DNA from: Hellea sp.
Lineage (GTDB): Bacteria; Pseudomonadota; Alphaproteobacteria; Caulobacterales; Maricaulaceae
Direction: 5' to 3'
Length of the DNA: 47,331 nt
NCBI GenBank assembly: GCA_020630275.1
Contig: JAHDBU010000005.1
Coordinates: 7,071-54,401 of the forward strand
The notes under the pieces were generated by a model. It was not told the DNA's origin, searched no databases, and saw only the letters and a program-made list of their open reading frames with translations. Both the position numbers and the translations under genes were made by a program. Positions 2,849-17,742 of the stretch are shown piece after piece (the first letter of the stretch is position 1; the number at the start of each line of letters is the position of its first letter).

Positions 2849-3616
2849 TTATCCTATCCGTCCCGTGATGTAATCCTGGGTACGGCTATCTGTAGGGTTG
2901 GTAAATATATTACTCGTTTGATCATATTCAATCAAATTGCCCATATGGAAAAAAGCCGTCCGATCAGAGATCCGGGCTGCCTGTGCCATTGAGTGCGTCA
3001 CAATCACAATACAGAATTTTTTCGACAGCTCGTCAATCAGCTCTTCCAGTTTCGCAGTCGCAATCGGGTCAAGCGCAGAGGCGGGTTCATCCATCAAAAT
3101 AACCTCAGGACTGACGGCAATTGTCCGTGCAATAACCAGGCGCTGCTGCTGACCGCCTGACAATCCCGTGCCGCCATCCTTGAGGCGGTCTTTTACCTCA
3201 TCCCAAAGCCCGGCCTTGGTCAAACTGCTCTCTACGATTTCATCGAGTTCAGCTTTATTGGCTGCTAGGCCGTGAATGCGGGGGCCGTAAGCCACATTGT
3301 CATAAATAGATTTCGGAAACGGGTTGGGCTTTTGGAAAACCATACCAACCCGGGCCCGGAGCAATACCGGATCCAAAGTCGGCGCGTAAATATCTTCGCC
3401 GTCCATTTTGACAATACCGGTAACTTTACAGCCCGGGATTGTATCATTCATGCGGTTAAAAACCCGCAGGAAAGACGATTTCCCACAGCCCGAGGGGCCG
3501 ATAAAAGCGGTAACACCCTGATCTTCGATTTCGATATCAATCCCGTGGAGCGCTTCTTTGCCTGAATAGGCAACCCGGACATCACGGCAGGAAAACTTTA
3601 TTTTCGATTGCGACAT
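2849..3616 (-). CDS. pstB: PstB, phosphate ABC transporter ATPase
   Basis: ATP-binding subunit that powers high-affinity phosphate import. The 255 residues match the usual PstB length. Walker A is GPSGCGKSS at 40–48, the PstB-typical Q-loop segment is [16 protein letters not shown] at about 92–107, the ABC signature is LSGGQQQR at 152–159, Walker B is VILMDEP at about 172–178, and the switch histidine is in VTHSMAQA near 207. It lies between pstA and phoU with short gaps and is surely co-transcribed with them. All catalytic motifs are intact. Confidence 0.98.
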
Positions 3617-3625
3617 AGCTATCTC

Positions 3626-4921
3626 TTACCAGCGTTTTTCAAGACGATTGCGAAGCCAGATCGCAAAGCCGTTAATTAAAATCAGAACCAGCAGCAGGAT
3701 CATAATAGCTGCAGATGTCTTTTCGACCCAGGCGCGCTCTGCATTAGACGACCAAATATAAATCTGGACGGGCAGAACGGTCGCCGGATCCGTCGGGCTG
3801 TTGGGCACTTCGGTGAGGAAGGCGACCATACCAATCATGAGTAGCGGCGCCGTTTCACCCAGAGCCTGTGCCATAGCGATAATAGACCCTGTTAAAATCC
3901 CCGGCCCTGCATGAGGCAGCTTATGATGAAAGACAGCCTGAACATGAGAAGCGCCGATACTTAAGGCCCCGTCCCGAATAGATTGCGGTACCGCCATGAG
4001 CGTTGCACGGGTCGCGATGATAACGGTGGGCAAAGCCCGCAAGCCCAAGACCAAACCACCGACGATTGGGATCGAGCGCGGCAATCCAAAGAAATTGATG
4101 AAAATGGCCAGACCAAGCACACCGAAAATAATCGACGGCACGGCAGCCAGATTGTTAATGTTGATTTCGATGAAATCAACAAAACGGTTGCGGGGCGCAA
4201 ACTCATCCAGCCAGATAGCCGCGCCAATTCCAACCGGAATGGCCATAAGGGCCGTCACAAACAACGTCATTAGCGAGCCTAAAAATGCCGTGGCAATGCC
4301 AGCTAATTCCGCGTCCCGACTATCCGGGTTGACGAAGAACCCTTTATTAAACCCGGATTTAATCTCACCTGTTTCCATCAATTGGTCGACCCATGCTATC
4401 TGACGGTCGGAAACTTTGCGGCGAGATTCGTCCAAGTCTCGGTCAATGTTACCCTTTAAGAGTTGATCCACATCATCAGAAGTGGGCACTGTAATCGTGA
4501 AGGATTGGCCAATAATGCTTGGGTCATTATAGGCCATTTGACGCAAATGATTAGGCGCACCCGACGTTGAGATAATATCAAAAAGTTCCTTTTTGGCTTT
4601 GCGATCCGTAACGTCCGGAAAACGCTCATACATGGCGTTTTGCACAATGCGTCTGTAATTGGATTTGCGAAGCGCGTCGGGATCTCGAGCACCCGTTGGA
4701 TCCAGCACGGACTCGGTCATTTCGACATCAAGCGTGAAACTGTGCGTGTAAAAAGCCTTATAGCCTGTTCCGATCACACTATATAGAAGCCAGATCAGCG
4801 CCATCACCGCAATGGCAATGGCACTCAGGCCCATGACCTTGAAACGGCGCTCGCGGGCGTGGCGTTTCTTAAGCCGTTTCAGAGCGCGTTCAGACGCGTG
4901 TATGGAAGGCGAAGAACTCAT
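3626..4921 (-). CDS. pstA: PstA, phosphate ABC transporter permease (long form)
   Basis: Inner-membrane permease subunit of the phosphate importer. At 431 residues it is longer than the E. coli type. After a basic N-terminus and a membrane helix (about 29–50) comes an extracytoplasmic insert of about 150 residues (roughly 55–205). This insert is known from alphaproteobacterial PstA proteins (DUF3333-type N-terminus). The transport core follows, with the EAA-like loop GASHVQAVFHHKLPHAGPG and ALGETAPLLMIG that contact PstB. The start ATG directly abuts the pstC stop, and no good Shine-Dalgarno sequence is present, so translation is probably coupled to pstC. Confidence 0.95.
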   Translation of the reverse strand: MSSSPSIHASERALKRLKKRHARERRFKVMGLSAIAIAVMALIWLLYSVIGTGYKAFYTHSFTLDVEMTESVLDPTGARDPDALRKSNYRRIVQNAMYERFPDVTDRKAKKELFDIISTSGAPNHLRQMAYNDPSIIGQSFTITVPTSDDVDQLLKGNIDRDLDESRRKVSDRQIAWVDQLMETGEIKSGFNKGFFVNPDSRDAELAGIATAFLGSLMTLFVTALMAIPVGIGAAIWLDEFAPRNRFVDFIEININNLAAVPSIIFGVLGLAIFINFFGLPRSIPIVGGLVLGLRALPTVIIATRATLMAVPQSIRDGALSIGASHVQAVFHHKLPHAGPGILTGSIIAMAQALGETAPLLMIGMVAFLTEVPNSPTDPATVLPVQIYIWSSNAERAWVEKTSAAIMILLLVLILINGFAIWLRNRLEKRW

Positions 4922-6127
4922 CTATTCGTACTTTGCGCTATAGCGTCTGACGATAATCAGAGCGATCATGTTAAGAAGAAGGGTCACCACAAACAGCATG
5001 AGCCCCAAGGCAAAAGCTGAGAGTGTTTTAGGGCTGTCAAATTCCAAGTCCCCAGTCAGCAAGGTCACGATCTGAAAGGTCACAGTAGAAACAGACTCAA
5101 ACGGGTTGGCAGTCAGATTGGCGGCACCACCCGCGGCCAGAACAACAATCATGGTCTCACCAATGGCCCGACTGATCGCCAAGAGAAAGGCGCCGATAAT
5201 GCCCGGCAGCGCACCCGCAAAAACAACCTTAGTCATGGTTTCTGATTTGGTCGCGCCCAATGCATAAGACCCGTCTCGCATGGATTGAGGTACGGCATTG
5301 ATCACATCATTGGACAGAGACGACACAAACGGAATGATCATAATACCCATGACCACGCCAGCCGTAAACGCACTCTGCGTCGGGATCCCAAATCCCATAC
5401 TTTCAGCGAAGCCCCGAATGAAAGGACCGAACGTTAAAAGGGCAAAAAACCCATACACAATAGTCGGAATTCCGGCGAGGATTTCGATCGTAGGTTTGAT
5501 GATACGCTTCGCTCTGACACTGGCATATTCAGATAGAAAAATCGCGATCATCAAGCCGATAGGCGCGGCAATGGACACGGCAATCAGCGTAATTAAAAAC
5601 GTACCGGCAAAGATTGGCACTGCGCCGAAGCTTCCAGACTGGCCTACCTGGTCATCGCGAAAGGCTGTTTGCGCTGACCAATCAAGCCCGGTGACAAAAT
5701 CAAGAAAACTGACCTCTTTGAAGAAGCGCATGCTCTCAAAGAGCAGCGAAAATATGATGCCGATCGTTGTGAATACGGCAATGAGGGAACATAAAACCAA
5801 AATGGATTTGATAAAATACTCGACATAAGTGCGCGCGCGAAAATCCGCCCCTATGCGGTTCATGGCAAAAAAGAAGCCGAGCACAGCAAGCACGACCATT
5901 AAAACAATTGTGAACAAAGGGCTCAGAGATAGAAAAGCGCTAACGATTAGCGCCAAAAATGCCAGGCCGCCCGACATAAGTCCTGCAAACCAACCGTGAT
6001 AACTCGGCTGTGAATGGATCGTCTTTGCTGCAACCGCCAATTGTCGCCTTGCTTTTTGCCGAGCAAAAACGAAAGAAATCGCCGTTAAGGCGAGCGTCAC
6101 ACATATCAAAATCAGGATCGAATTCAC
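4922..6127 (-). CDS. pstC: PstC, phosphate ABC transporter permease
   Basis: Second inner-membrane permease of the phosphate importer. The 401 residues have an N-terminal block of hydrophobic helices (about 1–145, with a short basic loop ARQKARRQ) before the permease core. The core carries the EAA loop GATKSETMTKVVFAGALPG and AIGETMIVVLAAGG. The gene starts with GTG, preceded by AAGGG at proper spacing. It is separated from pstS by a spacer holding a strong stem-loop, so it is probably expressed at a lower level than the binding protein. Confidence 0.95.
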   Translation of the reverse strand: MNSILILICVTLALTAISFVFARQKARRQLAVAAKTIHSQPSYHGWFAGLMSGGLAFLALIVSAFLSLSPLFTIVLMVVLAVLGFFFAMNRIGADFRARTYVEYFIKSILVLCSLIAVFTTIGIIFSLLFESMRFFKEVSFLDFVTGLDWSAQTAFRDDQVGQSGSFGAVPIFAGTFLITLIAVSIAAPIGLMIAIFLSEYASVRAKRIIKPTIEILAGIPTIVYGFFALLTFGPFIRGFAESMGFGIPTQSAFTAGVVMGIMIIPFVSSLSNDVINAVPQSMRDGSYALGATKSETMTKVVFAGALPGIIGAFLLAISRAIGETMIVVLAAGGAANLTANPFESVSTVTFQIVTLLTGDLEFDSPKTLSAFALGLMLFVVTLLLNMIALIIVRRYSAKYE

Positions 6128-6188: not shown

Positions 6189-7286
6189 CTATTGGCTATA
6201 GGGCGTCAGGTTTTCCACAGCCGCGCGATAAGCCGCACGTTCTGCATCCGGCAGAGGCACAAGTCCGATTTCTTCAAGATAGCCTCCAGGACCAGAAGCT
6301 TCCTCTGCGGTGAACTCTAGGGCGAATTCTTGAATGCCCGGATTAGCGGCAACATTGGCCTTTTTGATATAGAAAAACAGTGACCGGGCGATGCCGTAAT
6401 CACCAGACGCGATGTTTTCAAATGTCGGCTCGATACCGTCCACATTCGCGCCTTTGACGCTGTCGGCGTTTTGATCCAGGAAGGAATATCCAAAGATACC
6501 AATAGCAGTCGGCGTGTTACCCAATGTCTGAACAATGGCGTTATCGTTTTCGCCAGCATCATTCCAGTGACCATCTTCACGCAATGTGTGTGAGGCCACT
6601 TTGAAAGCACCTTTGTCTTTGCCACGAAGCTCTTTCAGACAGGCATATTTTTTGGCGCCGCCTTCCATGGCGATCTCAACGAAAGCATCACGCGTACCGG
6701 AGGTTGGCGGCGGGCCATAAGCTTCAATCTTTGTGGCTGGCAGTGAGGCATCAATATCTGCCCAGGTCTTATAGGGATTGTCCTGCATAGTGCAGTCTGT
6801 GTCACTCATTGGGACCTGTTTCGCGAATGCCTGATAGACCTGCTTGAGGGTCAGGTTCATTTGCGGCGCATCTATCGTATTGGCCAGAACAATGCCGTCA
6901 AATCCGATTTTGACTTCGATAATGTCGTCGACGCCATTAGCGCCGCATTTATCAAATTCGCTTTTCTTTTGACGACGCGATGAATTGGTCATGTCAGGTG
7001 TTGTTGACCCGATCCCTTCGCAAAAGAGTTTGTGTCCGCCACCCGAGCCGGTCGATTCAACAATCACATTTTGACCGGTTTTGTTTTTGAATTCCTGAGC
7101 CACTTTGGTCGAAAACGGATAAACGGTCGAAGAACCGACAACGCGGATTTCAGCCTTTTTGGCTGTTGCAGTCGTTTTCGTCGTTTCTGTTTTTGTGGTT
7201 GATTTCTTTGGCGCAGAGTCGCCACCACCGCATCCGGCGATGATCAGAGCTGTTGCTGCCATTCCTGTTAGGAGTAAATTTTTCAT
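6189..7286 (-). CDS. pstS: PstS, phosphate-binding lipoprotein
   Basis: Periplasmic phosphate-binding component of the Pst importer. The start is set at the ATG at 7286. An in-frame ATG 15 bases upstream lies inside the ribosome-binding sequence GGAAGGGAACACC and is therefore rejected. The resulting 365 residues begin with a lipoprotein signal, lipobox LIIAGC with Cys19, followed by a Ser/Thr/Lys linker rich in TKTT repeats. The solute-binding domain starts at IRVVGSSTVYPFSTK and includes ESTGSGGGHKLFCEG and SGTRDAFVE, which are typical phosphate-contacting segments of PstS. The protein is probably anchored in a membrane. It is flanked on both sides by stem-loops and lies between the porin and pstC. 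Confidence 0.95.
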   Translation of the reverse strand: MKNLLLTGMAATALIIAGCGGGDSAPKKSTTKTETTKTTATAKKAEIRVVGSSTVYPFSTKVAQEFKNKTGQNVIVESTGSGGGHKLFCEGIGSTTPDMTNSSRRQKKSEFDKCGANGVDDIIEVKIGFDGIVLANTIDAPQMNLTLKQVYQAFAKQVPMSDTDCTMQDNPYKTWADIDASLPATKIEAYGPPPTSGTRDAFVEIAMEGGAKKYACLKELRGKDKGAFKVASHTLREDGHWNDAGENDNAIVQTLGNTPTAIGIFGYSFLDQNADSVKGANVDGIEPTFENIASGDYGIARSLFFYIKKANVAANPGIQEFALEFTAEEASGPGGYLEEIGLVPLPDAERAAYRAAVENLTPYSQ

Positions 7287-7310
7287 GGTGTTCCCTTCCA
7301 TTCAAATGTG

Positions 7311-7338: not shown

Positions 7339-8541
7339 TTAAAAATCAAATCCGAGACGCGCATTTATCCCACTAGCGCTATCGGCGTATCCGCCCTCAG
7401 CATCCGAATTGAAATAATTGACACGCAGACGCGTGTTCTTGGTCGGCAACCAGTCGACGCCTAGAACGACAGTATCGAGCTGTCCCAGATACCCATTATC
7501 TTCTAGGTCAATCGTGTCATATCTGGCGACCAGGCCAACCGCGCCCATGCCACCTGCGCCGAGCGGATTGTCGACCTTCATGCGGTTATATGTACCGCCA
7601 GAAGATTTATAGGTCCGGCGTCCGCCAAACATGATACCGGCTTCGATATAGCCACCGCCAAAATTGGCATCCGGATTGTCGCCTGAACCATTCGCAGACA
7701 AGGCAGCATACTCAGCCGCAGCCCACATGTTCTTGTGCAAAGCCAGGCCTTCGATAGCGAAGAGATTGTCTGAATCGGCAAATTTTTCCGGGAGGCCATC
7801 AGCAATACGACCGGCATTGATGATCCGGCCGCTCGGCAAGAAACCGTCGGTATTTTGCGAGTCCAGAGAGTGAGCATATGGGCGCTGACGGTAACGGAAA
7901 TCACCGCTGTCTCCGGCATTTCTGTATCGCCACGATGCCCCCAAATGCAGGGTCGTGTCGTCGGTTTTTACGGGTGTGAAGGTCCCACGAATAGCAGCAG
8001 CCCGTCCGTTTTTCTTGGGCGTTTCGCTATTGATACTCTCGCCGTAAACGCCGGCATTGAAGGTGTAGGTATCGCCACTTGTGCCTACGGATAACCCCAT
8101 GCGTCGGTCAAGACCAAAGGCGTCTGTAAACGCGCCCCGCTCAATCGTTGTAATAAAGCGCGAACTGGCCTCTTCCTCGAGAGAGTTATGAGTTTTGAAA
8201 TGGCCGACCTTGACCGCGAATTTGGATTTTTTAGGGACAAATTGCAGAAATCCGTCTGTGACTTCTATATCGCCACCTGTGGTGTGATTGAACTCAAACT
8301 TAAATTTAACTGTGTCTGAAAACTTGCCTTTTGCGAAAAGTCTTGCCCGTCGGACCTCAGAGGAGGTGACGCTCAGGTCGTCGCCTGTTCCATTGACGTT
8401 TTTGATGTCGGTAAAGGCCTGATCCAACATCAAGCGCCCACCGAAATCAACGGTCACATCTTGTGCCTGTGCCGTGTTTGCCCCAACCATAGCTAACGAC
8501 AGAATAGCTGACGCCGCAGCCCTCTCAAAATATTTTTTCAT
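7339..8541 (-). CDS. Phosphate-selective porin, OprP/OprO family
   Basis: Outer-membrane beta-barrel that takes in phosphate or polyphosphate. The start chosen is ATG at 8541, preceded by GAGGG at good spacing. It gives 400 residues with a Sec signal peptide (1–26, cleavage after AQA). The mature part has the OprP-family opening (VTVDFGGRLMLDQAFTD), a conserved segment EVRRARLFAKGKFSDTVKFK, VGHFKTHNSLEEEASSRF, and a C-terminal aromatic residue (ARLGFDF) suited to BAM recognition. Its place directly before pstS and behind a Pho-box-like site argues for phosphate specificity. A maltoporin or general porin role is less likely. Confidence 0.9.
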   Translation of the reverse strand: MKKYFERAAASAILSLAMVGANTAQAQDVTVDFGGRLMLDQAFTDIKNVNGTGDDLSVTSSEVRRARLFAKGKFSDTVKFKFEFNHTTGGDIEVTDGFLQFVPKKSKFAVKVGHFKTHNSLEEEASSRFITTIERGAFTDAFGLDRRMGLSVGTSGDTYTFNAGVYGESINSETPKKNGRAAAIRGTFTPVKTDDTTLHLGASWRYRNAGDSGDFRYRQRPYAHSLDSQNTDGFLPSGRIINAGRIADGLPEKFADSDNLFAIEGLALHKNMWAAAEYAALSANGSGDNPDANFGGGYIEAGIMFGGRRTYKSSGGTYNRMKVDNPLGAGGMGAVGLVARYDTIDLEDNGYLGQLDTVVLGVDWLPTKNTRLRVNYFNSDAEGGYADSASGINARLGFDF

Positions 8542-8656
8542 TTTACCCTCTAAACGATCTGAAATCACCGTGATTCCGATTTCATTTACGAGGCGGCATA
8601 TGACTCTCTATTGTGACAGCTATTTTGATGTTTGATGATGTTTTTGATTACTTTTC

Positions 8657-8674
8657 GTGACGGATTTGTGACAG
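8657..8674 (-). promoter_or_regulatory. Pho box (PhoB-binding site) upstream of the porin–pst cluster
   Basis: Minus-strand CTGTCACAAATCCGTCAC is two 7-base direct repeats separated by 4 bases, an 11-base period. It matches the known Pho box (CTGTCAT, 4 A/T-rich bases, CTGTCAT-like) at most positions. It lies 116 bases before the porin start. A further half-site (CTGTCAC) at 8613–8619 lies between it and the gene. PhoB activation on phosphate starvation is inferred. Confidence 0.75.
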
Positions 8675-8737: not shown

Positions 8738-8881
8738 TTAAGCTAAAACGAACGCCAATATGACAAGCGCAACCGAAATTCCCGCTATAATCAGGGATTT
8801 GCTGTTAAACTCCGTCCGATAGGGAAACGGCTTTTTGCGCTCACTTAACGAGTTGGATATCATCGACTTATATACGATCAT
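8738..8881 (-). CDS. Small single-pass membrane protein, 47 residues, unknown function
   Basis: I do not recognise this protein. The frame is ATG to TAA with AGGA eight bases before the start. The N-terminal 30 residues are polar and basic (LSERKKPFPYRTEF), and residues 29–47 form one hydrophobic segment (SLIIAGISVALVILAFVLA) that ends the protein. This is a tail-anchored, N-in layout. The gene is on the same strand as the porin–pst genes and about 200 bases upstream of them. A Pho-box-like repeat lies 20 bases upstream of its start. It may be a phosphate-starvation microprotein, perhaps a partner of a transporter or of the PhoR sensor. Function is unproven, and chance cannot be fully excluded at this length. 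Confidence 0.55.
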   Translation of the reverse strand: MIVYKSMISNSLSERKKPFPYRTEFNSKSLIIAGISVALVILAFVLA

Positions 8882-8900
8882 GCCTTACTTCCTACACTAT

Positions 8901-8918
8901 GTGACATTAATATAACAT
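8901..8918 (-). promoter_or_regulatory. Pho-box-like repeat upstream of the 47-residue gene
   Basis: Minus-strand ATGTTATATTAATGTCAC has two TGT(T/C)A(T/C) cores with an 11-base period. The second core matches the Pho box well, the first with one mismatch. It lies 20 bases from the ATG at 8881. Confidence 0.45.
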
Positions 8919-8921
8919 GAA

Positions 8922-8939
8922 CTGTCACAAAAGTGTCAA
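8922..8939 (+). promoter_or_regulatory. Pho-box-like repeat on the plus strand
   Basis: CTGTCACAAAAGTGTCAA keeps the 7-4-7 layout of a Pho box. It points towards the flavoprotein gene at 8989, but it could also act with the adjacent minus-strand site as a larger PhoB array. Confidence 0.5.
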
Positions 8940-8988
8940 AATAATTACACATTAATATCATGGTTCCCTTTTTCTTTATTCAAGATAT

Positions 8989-10173
8989 ATGCCGAGCATG
9001 CATTTTGACGTCATAATAATAGGCGCTGGCGCGGCCGGTATGATGTGCGGGGCGGTCGCCGGACAAAGAGGCCGGTCTGTCCTCTTGATCGATCACGCCG
9101 AAAAGCCCGGTGAGAAAATTCGGATTTCCGGCGGCGGTCGGTGTAATTTCACCAATTTGCACTGCGGACCGGACAATTTCATCAGCCAGAACCCGCATTT
9201 CTGCAAATCCGCGCTGTCTCGCTACACGCCCTATGATTTTATCGATCTGGTCGAACGCTACGGCATTGCCTGGCATGAGAAGACTTTGGGGCAGCTCTTT
9301 TGCGATGGACGCTCTCAGCAAATTATCGATCTCCTACTGAATGAATGTGAAAAGGCGGGCAATGAGATTTGGCTGGGCGCAGAGGTCATCGATGTCAGGC
9401 GGACCCCGGACGGCGAATATATCGTCACCACCAACCGCCAGTCCCTGACCTGCGAAAGCCTGGTCATCGCCACAGGCGGCGCGTCTATACCGAAAATGGG
9501 TGCGACCCGTTTCGGCTATAAATTGGCCGAGCAATTTGGGCTCGGCATCATAGAGACCGTCCCTGCTCTCGTTCCCCTGACATTTACAGATGAGTTAAAA
9601 GCCCCATTAAAGGCCCTTTCCGGGGTCAGTGTGACGGCCCGCGTTTCAAATGACCGAATGCGCTTTGACGAAGACTTGCTGTTCACCCATCGCGGCCTTT
9701 CAGGACCGTCTATTCTTCAAATTTCTTCTTATTGGGAGCCAGGCGAACATATTAACGTTGACTTGGAGCCTGGCATTGACATTTTAGAGACACTCAAAAC
9801 GACGCGGACAGAAAAGCCACGTCAAAATATCAAAACCATTATCTCTGCCTGGCTGCCAGACCGTTTGGCGGAACATATCTGTAAAGACGTCAAAAAACTG
9901 CGCATTGCCGATATGAGCGATCCAGAACTAATCAATATTGCGCTGCAAATTAATGGCTGGCAGATCAAACCGGCCGGGACAGAGGGCTTTCGAACAGCCG
10001 AGGTGACCAAAGGCGGCGTGGATACAGATGATCTGTCGTCCAAAACCATGGAATGTCGCCGCTTTCCGGGCCTCTACTTCATCGGGGAAGTCGTGGACGT
10101 GACCGGTCATCTGGGTGGCCATAATTTCCAATGGGCCTGGGCCAGCGGGCATGCCGCCGGACAAGCCGTCTAA
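8989..10173 (+). CDS. FAD-dependent oxidoreductase, HI0933/YhiN family
   Basis: Flavoprotein of the HI0933/YhiN (BaiN-like) family, whose physiological substrate is mostly unknown. The 394 residues begin with a dinucleotide-binding motif IIIGAGAAGMMCG (about 9–21). The family hallmark ISGGGRCNFTN follows at about 46–56, and the conserved C-terminal stretch FPGLYFIGEVVDVTGHLGG covers the second FAD-contact region. MHFDV (ATG at 8998) is an alternative start; neither has a strong ribosome-binding site. A Pho-box-like site lies 50 bases upstream, so phosphate control is possible but unproven. The pxp operon follows after 63 bases. Confidence 0.9.
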   Translation: MPSMHFDVIIIGAGAAGMMCGAVAGQRGRSVLLIDHAEKPGEKIRISGGGRCNFTNLHCGPDNFISQNPHFCKSALSRYTPYDFIDLVERYGIAWHEKTLGQLFCDGRSQQIIDLLLNECEKAGNEIWLGAEVIDVRRTPDGEYIVTTNRQSLTCESLVIATGGASIPKMGATRFGYKLAEQFGLGIIETVPALVPLTFTDELKAPLKALSGVSVTARVSNDRMRFDEDLLFTHRGLSGPSILQISSYWEPGEHINVDLEPGIDILETLKTTRTEKPRQNIKTIISAWLPDRLAEHICKDVKKLRIADMSDPELINIALQINGWQIKPAGTEGFRTAEVTKGGVDTDDLSSKTMECRRFPGLYFIGEVVDVTGHLGGHNFQWAWASGHAAGQAV

Positions 10174-15399: not shown

Positions 15400-16875
15400 A
15401 TGAGAAGCGGACTTCAGACCCTGCATGAAATCGACGAGGCCATTGCCAGGGCACGTAAAGCCGTGGCGGAAGCCTCGGAAATTCCAAAGAAAAACGCGGA
15501 AACCCTGATGGATTTGCGACGGCAGCAAACGGCCGCTTATGACGAAATCGCCCGGGAACGCCTGAAGGTTCTGGAAAAGGGTGAAGGCGGTGAACTGGGT
15601 TATATCGACCGACAAGCCGAGAAGCTTTTAGATGAGCATGTGAAAGCTCAGGCGATCCTGGACAAGAAACTCGACAAGGCCGTTGTCATCGTCGAAAAAC
15701 ACGAAGCAGAGCGTCGCAAAGTCGAAGCCGAAGTCACCAAAGCCGTCGATAATTATGACAAGGCGGCCGCCGTTGCAGAGACAGAAATTCTCCTCGACCC
15801 CGCCTATCAGGAAGCCCTCGACAATGTGGAAAAGGCCGAAAGCATGGTCATCCGATCGTCGGAAAAACTGGAATTGGCCCGGGAAAACGAACGGGAAAAA
15901 GGCAAGCCCTATCGCAGCGATCCATATTTTAATTATCTTCGCAAACGCGGCTATGGCACAAAGGCCGCGAAGGGTTGGTTTCTGACGCGAATGCTGGACG
16001 GCTGGGTGGCCCGCATGATCAATTACAATGAGAATGCCGATAATTATCAGCGCCTGACCGATATCCCGAAACGCCTGGAGAATCATGTCTCCTCATTAGA
16101 AGAGCAAGTCTACGCTGTGCGGGAATCTCTAGAGGCATTGGAAGCGGATATCTTAAAGCATAAAGGCGTGACCGCGCTGCACAAGAAATCACTGGATGCA
16201 CAGGCCAAACTGGATGAGGTCGACGAAAAAATAGCCGTTGCCGAACGGGGATACGAAACCTTAAGAGCCGAACATCAGCAAATGGCAGCCGGAGAAAGCG
16301 GGCCCTATATGGAGGCCGTCAATATTCTTTCAGACGGCTTAAAACGTATCAAATATTCCGACTTGCGCAGGCTGGCAGCCCAGACCACATCCCGGGAAGA
16401 TGACAATGCGATCGAAGACATCAAAGACCTGGCCCGTGCCGCAGATGAACTTGAAGATGATCACAAGGACGCAAAAAAGCTGATCAAAAAGTACGAACGT
16501 ACTCTGCGTGAGCTCGAAGATGTTCGACGCCGGTTTAAAAACCGCCGCTATGATGCGCCCTCGTCTGTTTTTCAAAACGATATGGTCAGAGCTATTCTTT
16601 TACAGGTCCTAGCGGGGGCCATGAGCGGCGATAATCTCTGGCGGCAGATCGAGCGGGCACAACGCACGATACGTCGTTATTCCGACAATGATTTTGGCGG
16701 TGTGGATTGGACAGAGGGCCTGCGTCTACCCAGGGCTTCGCGTAGCTCCCGACGCAGCCCAAGGGTGCGAACCTCTATCCCACGCACGCCCCGTACCAGC
16801 CTGCCAAGGCGGCCAACCGTTCGGAGGTCCTCAGGGCGTAGCTCCGGCGGTTTCCGCACGGGCGGCGGTTTCTAG
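15400..16875 (+). CDS. Long coiled-coil protein with Arg/Ser-rich, Gly-aromatic tail
   Basis: I do not recognise a family. The 491 residues are almost all charged helix with coiled-coil character (about 5–185 and 225–420). They are split by a conserved-looking central segment with many aromatics (KPYRSDPYFNYLRKRGYG and MLDGWVARMINYNENADNY, about 170–225). The last 50 residues are a basic Ser/Arg/Pro-rich tail ending SGGFRTGGGF. No signal peptide or membrane helix is seen, so it is probably cytosolic or held at the membrane by the partner before it. The frame is open further upstream, but that part overlaps the previous gene, and the ATG at 15400 right after its stop is preferred. The end overlaps tadD by 45 bases tail to tail. 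Confidence 0.8.
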   Translation: MRSGLQTLHEIDEAIARARKAVAEASEIPKKNAETLMDLRRQQTAAYDEIARERLKVLEKGEGGELGYIDRQAEKLLDEHVKAQAILDKKLDKAVVIVEKHEAERRKVEAEVTKAVDNYDKAAAVAETEILLDPAYQEALDNVEKAESMVIRSSEKLELARENEREKGKPYRSDPYFNYLRKRGYGTKAAKGWFLTRMLDGWVARMINYNENADNYQRLTDIPKRLENHVSSLEEQVYAVRESLEALEADILKHKGVTALHKKSLDAQAKLDEVDEKIAVAERGYETLRAEHQQMAAGESGPYMEAVNILSDGLKRIKYSDLRRLAAQTTSREDDNAIEDIKDLARAADELEDDHKDAKKLIKKYERTLRELEDVRRRFKNRRYDAPSSVFQNDMVRAILLQVLAGAMSGDNLWRQIERAQRTIRRYSDNDFGGVDWTEGLRLPRASRSSRRSPRVRTSIPRTPRTSLPRRPTVRRSSGRSSGGFRTGGGF

Positions 16876-17742
16876 GGCGTCAAGCTTGTCAAGATTAGCC
16901 TGTGCCTTAGCATGATAAGTCGGGCTAATATCCAAAGCTTTTGAAAACAAACGCCGGGCGACATTTACCTTGCCCCGCGTCATAGCCACATAACCGGCAT
17001 CATTTAGAATATCAGCCCCTCTGACTTCATCAATATTATCCAGTGCGGCATCCAGGTTTCCTTGAAGAATATAAACCATACGGAGATTATTCTCATATAC
17101 CCGATTGTGCGGTGTCAGGTTGATCGCTTGTTGAAATTTTTTCTGCGCCTCATCCAGGCGATCCTGTAATAAAAGCGACATGCCCATATTATTGATAGTG
17201 CCTCCCCGCCATTTCCCAGATTTCATGGCTTCAACATAGGAGGACAAAGCCTCCATCCATTCACCTTGCTTGTCATGATAATGTCCCTTGGCATTCCATA
17301 ACCGAGGGTCGTTTGGGCTTAATACCATGCCATCGTTAATCGCTCTCATGGGGCTATCATACCGATCCGTATATATGCCCGAGAGGGTTTTCCCGATCTG
17401 AAAACTCACATCTAGAGAGCCTTCTCCAGTCCAAACAGGTGCCCAATAAATCTTTGCAGCCTGTTGATATTCGCCCAAAGCTAATAGAGAATTCGCTTGG
17501 CCAGAAAGCGCATCTTTGCGATCTGGGTCATAAGCGCTGACCTTTCGAAAACCGTTCAAAGCTTCCAGATAGTTTTCATTTGCATAGTCTTTTTGAGCGG
17601 TCGCAAAAACCTCATCGGCGTCAAACGGATCCGATTTCATGGTCTGAACGGGTTCAATATTGACGGGTGCTATGTCCACTTTAGGCGTGGACGCGCAGCC
17701 CATTAGAGCGACCGATACCCCTATGAAGAGCGCCGCTCTCAT
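16831..17742 (-). CDS. tadD: TadD-like TPR lipoprotein
   Basis: Tetratricopeptide lipoprotein of the Tad (tight adherence) pilus, thought to help assembly of the outer-membrane part. The 303 residues start with a lipoprotein signal (lipobox ALMGC, Cys16). They then contain several TPR units, for example about 50–110 and NNMGMSLLLQDRLDEAQKKF near 180, running to a last repeat ending in a Leu/Ala-rich helix. The gene is the last of the Tad operon and overlaps tadC by ATGA. Its final 45 bases are antisense to the tail of the coiled-coil gene on the other strand. Confidence 0.87.
   Translation of the reverse strand: MRAALFIGVSVALMGCASTPKVDIAPVNIEPVQTMKSDPFDADEVFATAQKDYANENYLEALNGFRKVSAYDPDRKDALSGQANSLLALGEYQQAAKIYWAPVWTGEGSLDVSFQIGKTLSGIYTDRYDSPMRAINDGMVLSPNDPRLWNAKGHYHDKQGEWMEALSSYVEAMKSGKWRGGTINNMGMSLLLQDRLDEAQKKFQQAINLTPHNRVYENNLRMVYILQGNLDAALDNIDEVRGADILNDAGYVAMTRGKVNVARRLFSKALDISPTYHAKAQANLDKLDALETAARAETAGATP

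Follow-up and report, generated by a model that had tools for sequence, protein, structure and literature searches.

A 47-codon gene beside the porin–pst genes of Hellea sp. encodes a small, putatively membrane-anchored protein conserved in three related marine bacteria, and an exceptionally strong Pho box overlaps its putative promoter. We read the protein as a modulator of the Pst/PhoR machinery that would act when phosphate is replete and be silenced by PhoB~P, a chain that as a whole we give a probability of roughly 0.4. That the frame is a genuine protein-coding gene is almost certain; the assignment of its promoter, the sign of its regulation and its partner are what we infer. Coordinates refer to the window, the whole 47,331-nucleotide stretch of DNA that was analysed (Table 1).

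Table 1. Features of the flavoprotein–porin–pst region in the window
Feature	Coordinates	Strand	Remarks
phoU	2119–2844	minus	
pstB	2849–3616	minus	
pstA	3626–4921	minus	
pstC	4922–6127	minus	
pstS	6189–7301	minus	
Phosphate-selective porin O/P (PF07396)	7339–8541	minus	start taken as ATG 8541
CATATG, presumed porin −10	8597–8602	minus	9 nt past last half-site
Porin Pho array	8612–8673	minus	11-bp phased half-sites TGTCACAAATC CGTCACGAAAA ... TGTCACA
47-codon small gene	8738–8881	minus	ATG start; N-terminal positive tail 1–27, predicted C-terminal TM helix about 28–47
Shine-Dalgarno AGGAAG	8888–8893	minus	6 nt before small-gene ATG
Weak Pho-like repeat	8900–8917	minus	TGTTATATTAATGTCACA; 11.0 bits; originally placed at 8901–8918
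Putative sigma-70 promoter of small gene	8910–8939	minus	TTGACA 8939–8934, 18 nt, TTATAT 8915–8910; −10 tentative
Strong Pho box	8922–8939	plus	CTGTCAC-AAAA-GTGTCAA; 18-mer scored 8923–8940; 25.4 bits
CATTAA, −10-like toward flavoprotein	8950–8955	plus	9 nt past second half-site; identical in three carriers; suggestive
HI0933-like FAD flavoprotein (TIGR00275, PF03486)	8998–10173	plus	start ATG 8998 by comparison with relatives

The small frame is a conserved protein-coding gene

The product of the small frame is a protein of 47 residues, MIVYKSMISNSLSERKKPFPYRTEFNSKSLIIAGISVALVILAFVLA. Two relatives stood out strongly in a search of 99 related genomes, with E-values of 4e-22 and 5e-18; they are 87% and 72% identical to the window protein, and the three sequences align without internal gaps. 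Start, frame and length are kept in both orthologues. Across the three pairs dN/dS was about 0.09–0.11, with 17–26 changes per pair at third codon positions and 3–5 at second positions. When the same changes were placed at random, none of 5000 placements was as conservative for any pair, and about 70% of placements created a stop in the frame. Codons Met1 to Met7 show solely synonymous variation, which supports Met1 as the start of the protein. A ribosome site stands in front of the gene in all three carriers, reading GGAGG at nearly the same place in the carrier genome G003. The frame is thus conserved under purifying selection, as is characteristic of a protein-coding gene. The original prediction had described a frame with a start, a ribosome site and a C-terminal membrane helix, all of which we recovered (ATG, AGGAAG at 6 nt, hydrophobic residues 29–47). 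It had also set conservation of the frame in relatives as its own test beforehand; that test was run, and the frame proved conserved at a dN/dS of about 0.1.

A non-gene, or a mere leader peptide of the porin transcript, might also be very short, match no family and be represented by only three sequences. We hold this explanation to be extremely improbable: the frame is conserved at the protein level with dN/dS about 0.1 and has a ribosome site of its own, a search for RNA families found none in the region, a terminator lies 3′ of the ORF in G003, and a promoter array belonging to the porin itself lies downstream of the ORF.

The small protein is predicted to span the membrane once

Residues 29–47 form a hydrophobic C-terminal stretch (Kyte-Doolittle mean 2.5–2.8 over 19 residues), and an AlphaFold model places a C-terminal helix at residues 27–46 with pLDDT about 92, its N-terminal helix being less certain. 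Hydropathy and the model together predict a transmembrane helix that would insert into the membrane. Ahead of this helix are the charged residues K5, R15, K16, K17, R22 and K28. By the positive-inside rule a positively charged tail lies on the cytoplasmic side; the tail would thus be cytoplasmic, and the small protein is best read as single-pass and cytoplasm-facing, with a short positive tail and almost nothing outside. Residues 1–34 are nearly invariant among the carriers and the outer half of the helix drifts, which points to a function residing in the cytoplasmic tail.

Searches with the small protein found no family match in Pfam (E 0.001 or better, the DUF1127 profile included), NCBIfam or PDB sequences, and none in PHROGs (best E 0.12). 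MgtR and KdpF are very small proteins that cross the inner membrane once and whose genes lie close to the system that they touch. The small protein is likewise tiny, apparently single-helix and placed beside a putative target system, but it has a longer conserved cytoplasmic tail and no detected similarity to library families. By analogy, and not by membership, its nearest functional precedent is the small DUF1127 proteins (the SDPs of Agrobacterium and YjiS of E. coli), which lower the uptake of phosphate by binding PhoR, the phosphate sensor kinase (PMC12501420). These too are often under 50 residues and positively charged, with alphaproteobacterial examples; the DUF1127 domain, however, is widespread, whereas the window's protein has a predicted C-terminal membrane helix and no Pfam hit. 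MgtC of Salmonella, a membrane protein that binds PhoR (PMC6658541), is a precedent for modulation of PhoR from the membrane, although it is much larger than the small protein, is unrelated to it and activates PhoR.

Carriers of the small gene form one clade

Three related marine bacteria carry the small gene, the public records being those of an uncultured Caulobacterales MAG and of a Hellea sp. MAG, and all three share the order flavoprotein < > small ORF > porin > pst. Searches of 137 family genomes and of a sample of 385 from the class gave no further credible relative of the protein; a scan of 84,980 species seeded with a pattern gave none either, nor did plasmids or viral contigs. Weak matches elsewhere (E 0.003–0.1) were dropped once their context showed them to be shadow frames or parts of larger proteins, such as the one in G028 that falls within a relA/spoT-like gene. 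The flavoprotein and porin genes are near each other in eight genus genomes; the gap is 146–220 nt where they are directly adjacent (G001, G006, G008 and G009), against 421–472 nt in the three carriers. In the flavoprotein tree the carriers are one clade (support 95/94). The simplest reading is that the small gene was gained on the carrier branch, losses elsewhere being the alternative, and it is best read as lineage-specific from the genomes compared.

In G007 the place between flavoprotein and porin that the small gene has in carriers holds a gene for a 460-residue multi-helix protein (L103:239-1618, minus strand), which by eye is like an inorganic phosphate permease and has no Pfam match. 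Relatives of this protein occur in eight other genus genomes, that of the Hellea window included, and every small-gene carrier holds one elsewhere in its genome. A link to PiT (PF01384) was also checked, and the three carriers showed none.

The porin has a Pho array of its own

The order porin-pstS-pstC-pstA-pstB-phoU on the small gene's strand was rightly called in the original prediction, which further placed the small gene at the head of this cluster. It had overlooked a porin-sense box (8656–8673, minus strand; 17.5 bits, with 24.1 and 17.5 in relatives) and the porin array at 8612–8673. This array separates the small ORF from the porin and is present also in siblings that lack the ORF, so that the array and a presumed −10 intervene where co-transcription would call for an interval free of promoters and terminators. 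After the small ORF, G003 has an intrinsic terminator (CACGG..CCGTG TTTTTTT); no clear terminator was found there in the window. Given the porin's separate array, the best view of the small gene is as a transcription unit of its own, apart from the porin-pst operon and not at the head of pst, with possible read-through. What holds is that a conserved small membrane protein gene adjoins porin-pstSCAB-phoU together with a genuine Pho box.

The porin gene itself is a mosaic. Its promoter-proximal part, the leader and signal peptide, is about 86% identical to that of G005; beyond about 8460, identity with G005 falls to about 48–67% and identity with G006, which is elsewhere more distant, rises to 63–84%. 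This suggests that recombination replaced the mature porin.

A strong Pho box faces the flavoprotein gene

An 18-base Pho-box matrix was learned without supervision from the porin upstreams of 16 genomes, with the three carriers left out, and yielded the motif TGTCACAAAACTGTCACA. Applied to phoB as an independent check, the matrix picked out a site ahead of the gene in six of nine genus genomes. Every one of these is in sense orientation, as are nearly all porin boxes, so the orientation of a Pho box is informative. The phoB boxes lie just upstream of the gene (loci L139-L147), which implies phoB autoregulation; the phoB upstreams of G002, G004 and G009 have no Pho box within 130 nt. The window's assembly encodes PhoB, at a score exceeding the curated cut-off, on a different contig; a histidine kinase gene lies immediately upstream of it.

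In the small gene's promoter region, a Pho box of 11-bp direct repeats is conserved in three genomes, scoring 25.4 bits in the window, where it ranks first in the whole 47 kb, and 25.1 and 25.8 bits in the relatives. A strict Pho pattern has a single match in the whole 2.2 Mb assembly, which is this box; a looser genome-wide pattern gave near the chance number of matches, the porin box excepted. For scale, Markov random sequence is expected to hold about 1.2 sites of 10.9 bits per 47 kb, and 3 Mb of random sequence held zero sites of 17.4 bits or more. A further Pho-like site (17165–17182, plus strand, 18.0 bits) is inside a gene (16831–17742) that is tetratricopeptide-like by eye, and is possibly inert. 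The original prediction had two Pho boxes arranged to switch the small gene on. Both repeats are there: that at 8922–8939 is very strong but on the plus strand, directed away from the ORF, and that at 8901–8918 on the minus strand is weak (11.0 bits). The arrangement did not hold up, as the strong box points the opposite way and covers the small gene's −35.

The TTGACA of the small gene is identical in the three genomes, and its tentative −10, T(T/A)ATAT, stands about 28 nt ahead of the ATG. The G003 promoter, TTGACA-18-TAATAT, scores 10/12, and the window version, with its weak −10, falls below the promoter scanner's cut. Relative to the small gene, the strong box occupies positions of about −38 to −20 and so overlaps the −35 and spacer. 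Its second half-site is TGTCAAA in all three carriers, and the A, rare in the matrix, gives the perfect TTGACA on the opposite strand. In porin and phoB promoters of the genus the half-sites are phased at 11 bp, and in many of these promoters CATAGG, CATATG or similar comes 9 nt after the final half-site. Read toward the flavoprotein, the strong box has this same layout (TGTCACAAAAG TGTCAAA, 9 nt, CATTAA). Because a CAT at +9 turns up by chance with a probability of about 1/64 for each half-site, we regard the flavoprotein promoter as no more than suggestive. Toward the small gene we found no sense box with a −10 at genus spacing, the weak sense repeat having no −10 at +9. The box and promoter block is 82–95% identical between carriers, against 12–24% versus G003 for the stretch past the ORF; the block is therefore under selection.

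The carrier clade seems to have gained a PhoB-type promoter for the flavoprotein gene (8922–8998). The flavoprotein start is without a clear ribosome site in carriers; G009 has one. The gene precedes YcsF (PxpA) and carboxyltransferase-domain (PxpB/PxpC-like) genes.

Three ways of reading the shared box

The box could serve the flavoprotein alone, with the small gene PhoB-independent, unrelated in its envelope function and there by chance. The genus-typical geometry toward the flavoprotein would fit this, as would the small gene's own promoter-like sequence, its terminator in G003 and the lack of resemblance to any known phosphate protein. We doubt it: in siblings lacking the small gene no such box precedes the flavoprotein, binding at a box that overlaps the small gene's −35 should affect the small gene, and the gene is beside porin-pst in every carrier.

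PhoB~P might alternatively activate the small gene in starvation, via the weak sense repeat or the reversed strong box, with the protein tuning the Pst transporter or PhoR, as originally predicted. The weak repeat is common to all three carriers (11.0, 10.9 and 13.9 bits), the strong box has the position of activating Pho boxes relative to the small gene, and it is tied to the small-gene insert, given its absence from the siblings' flavoprotein upstreams. We nevertheless find activation unlikely. Sense orientation holds for nearly every porin box and for every phoB box found, many of them with half-site, 9 nt and CATA, and at the small gene no sense box is followed by a −10 so spaced. Its weak repeat extends into the ribosome site, and PhoB-dependent activation would not need a perfect TTGACA.

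Silencing of the small gene by PhoB~P is the reading that we prefer, tentatively. The near-consensus −35 TTGACA would be embedded in the strong plus-strand box; PhoB~P there would activate transcription toward the flavoprotein, and its occupancy would cover the −35 and spacer and hinder the small gene. Because the strong box covers these elements and faces the flavoprotein, an antagonistic divergent switch seems most likely, in which the small protein would be made at sufficient phosphate and shut off in starvation. PhoB activates or represses according to site position (PMC10294691). The PhoP-repressed tagAB and tagDEF genes of B. subtilis (cited in PMC4415409) offer a precedent for repression by a Pho response regulator in phosphate starvation, although organism, regulator and genes all differ. 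The weak −10 of the small gene speaks against silencing, as does the placement of the box at −38 to −20, where activating boxes also lie, only reversed.

Location and the box plausibly give the small protein a role in phosphate signalling. Its conserved cytoplasmic tail would bind a partner in the inner membrane or the cytoplasm that most plausibly belongs to the Pst/PhoR/PhoU complex, and the protein would dampen this partner, encoded or regulated alongside it. A more specific version makes it a recently acquired or newborn mini-protein acting as a phosphate-replete brake on PstSCAB/PhoR, which PhoB~P silences via the box that also activates the divergent flavoprotein gene. We think this full combination quite improbable; if true, the brake and its silencing would form a double-negative circuit, specific to this lineage, that extends the Pho system. 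Annotation easily misses small membrane proteins, and few have been tied to phosphate control. The small gene has strong coding evidence, is confined to one small clade and carries a Pho box stronger than any other found in its genome. This makes it a clean case for studying the wiring of a young small protein into an old regulon, and for asking if a Pho box in reverse can act as a repressor site in Alphaproteobacteria.
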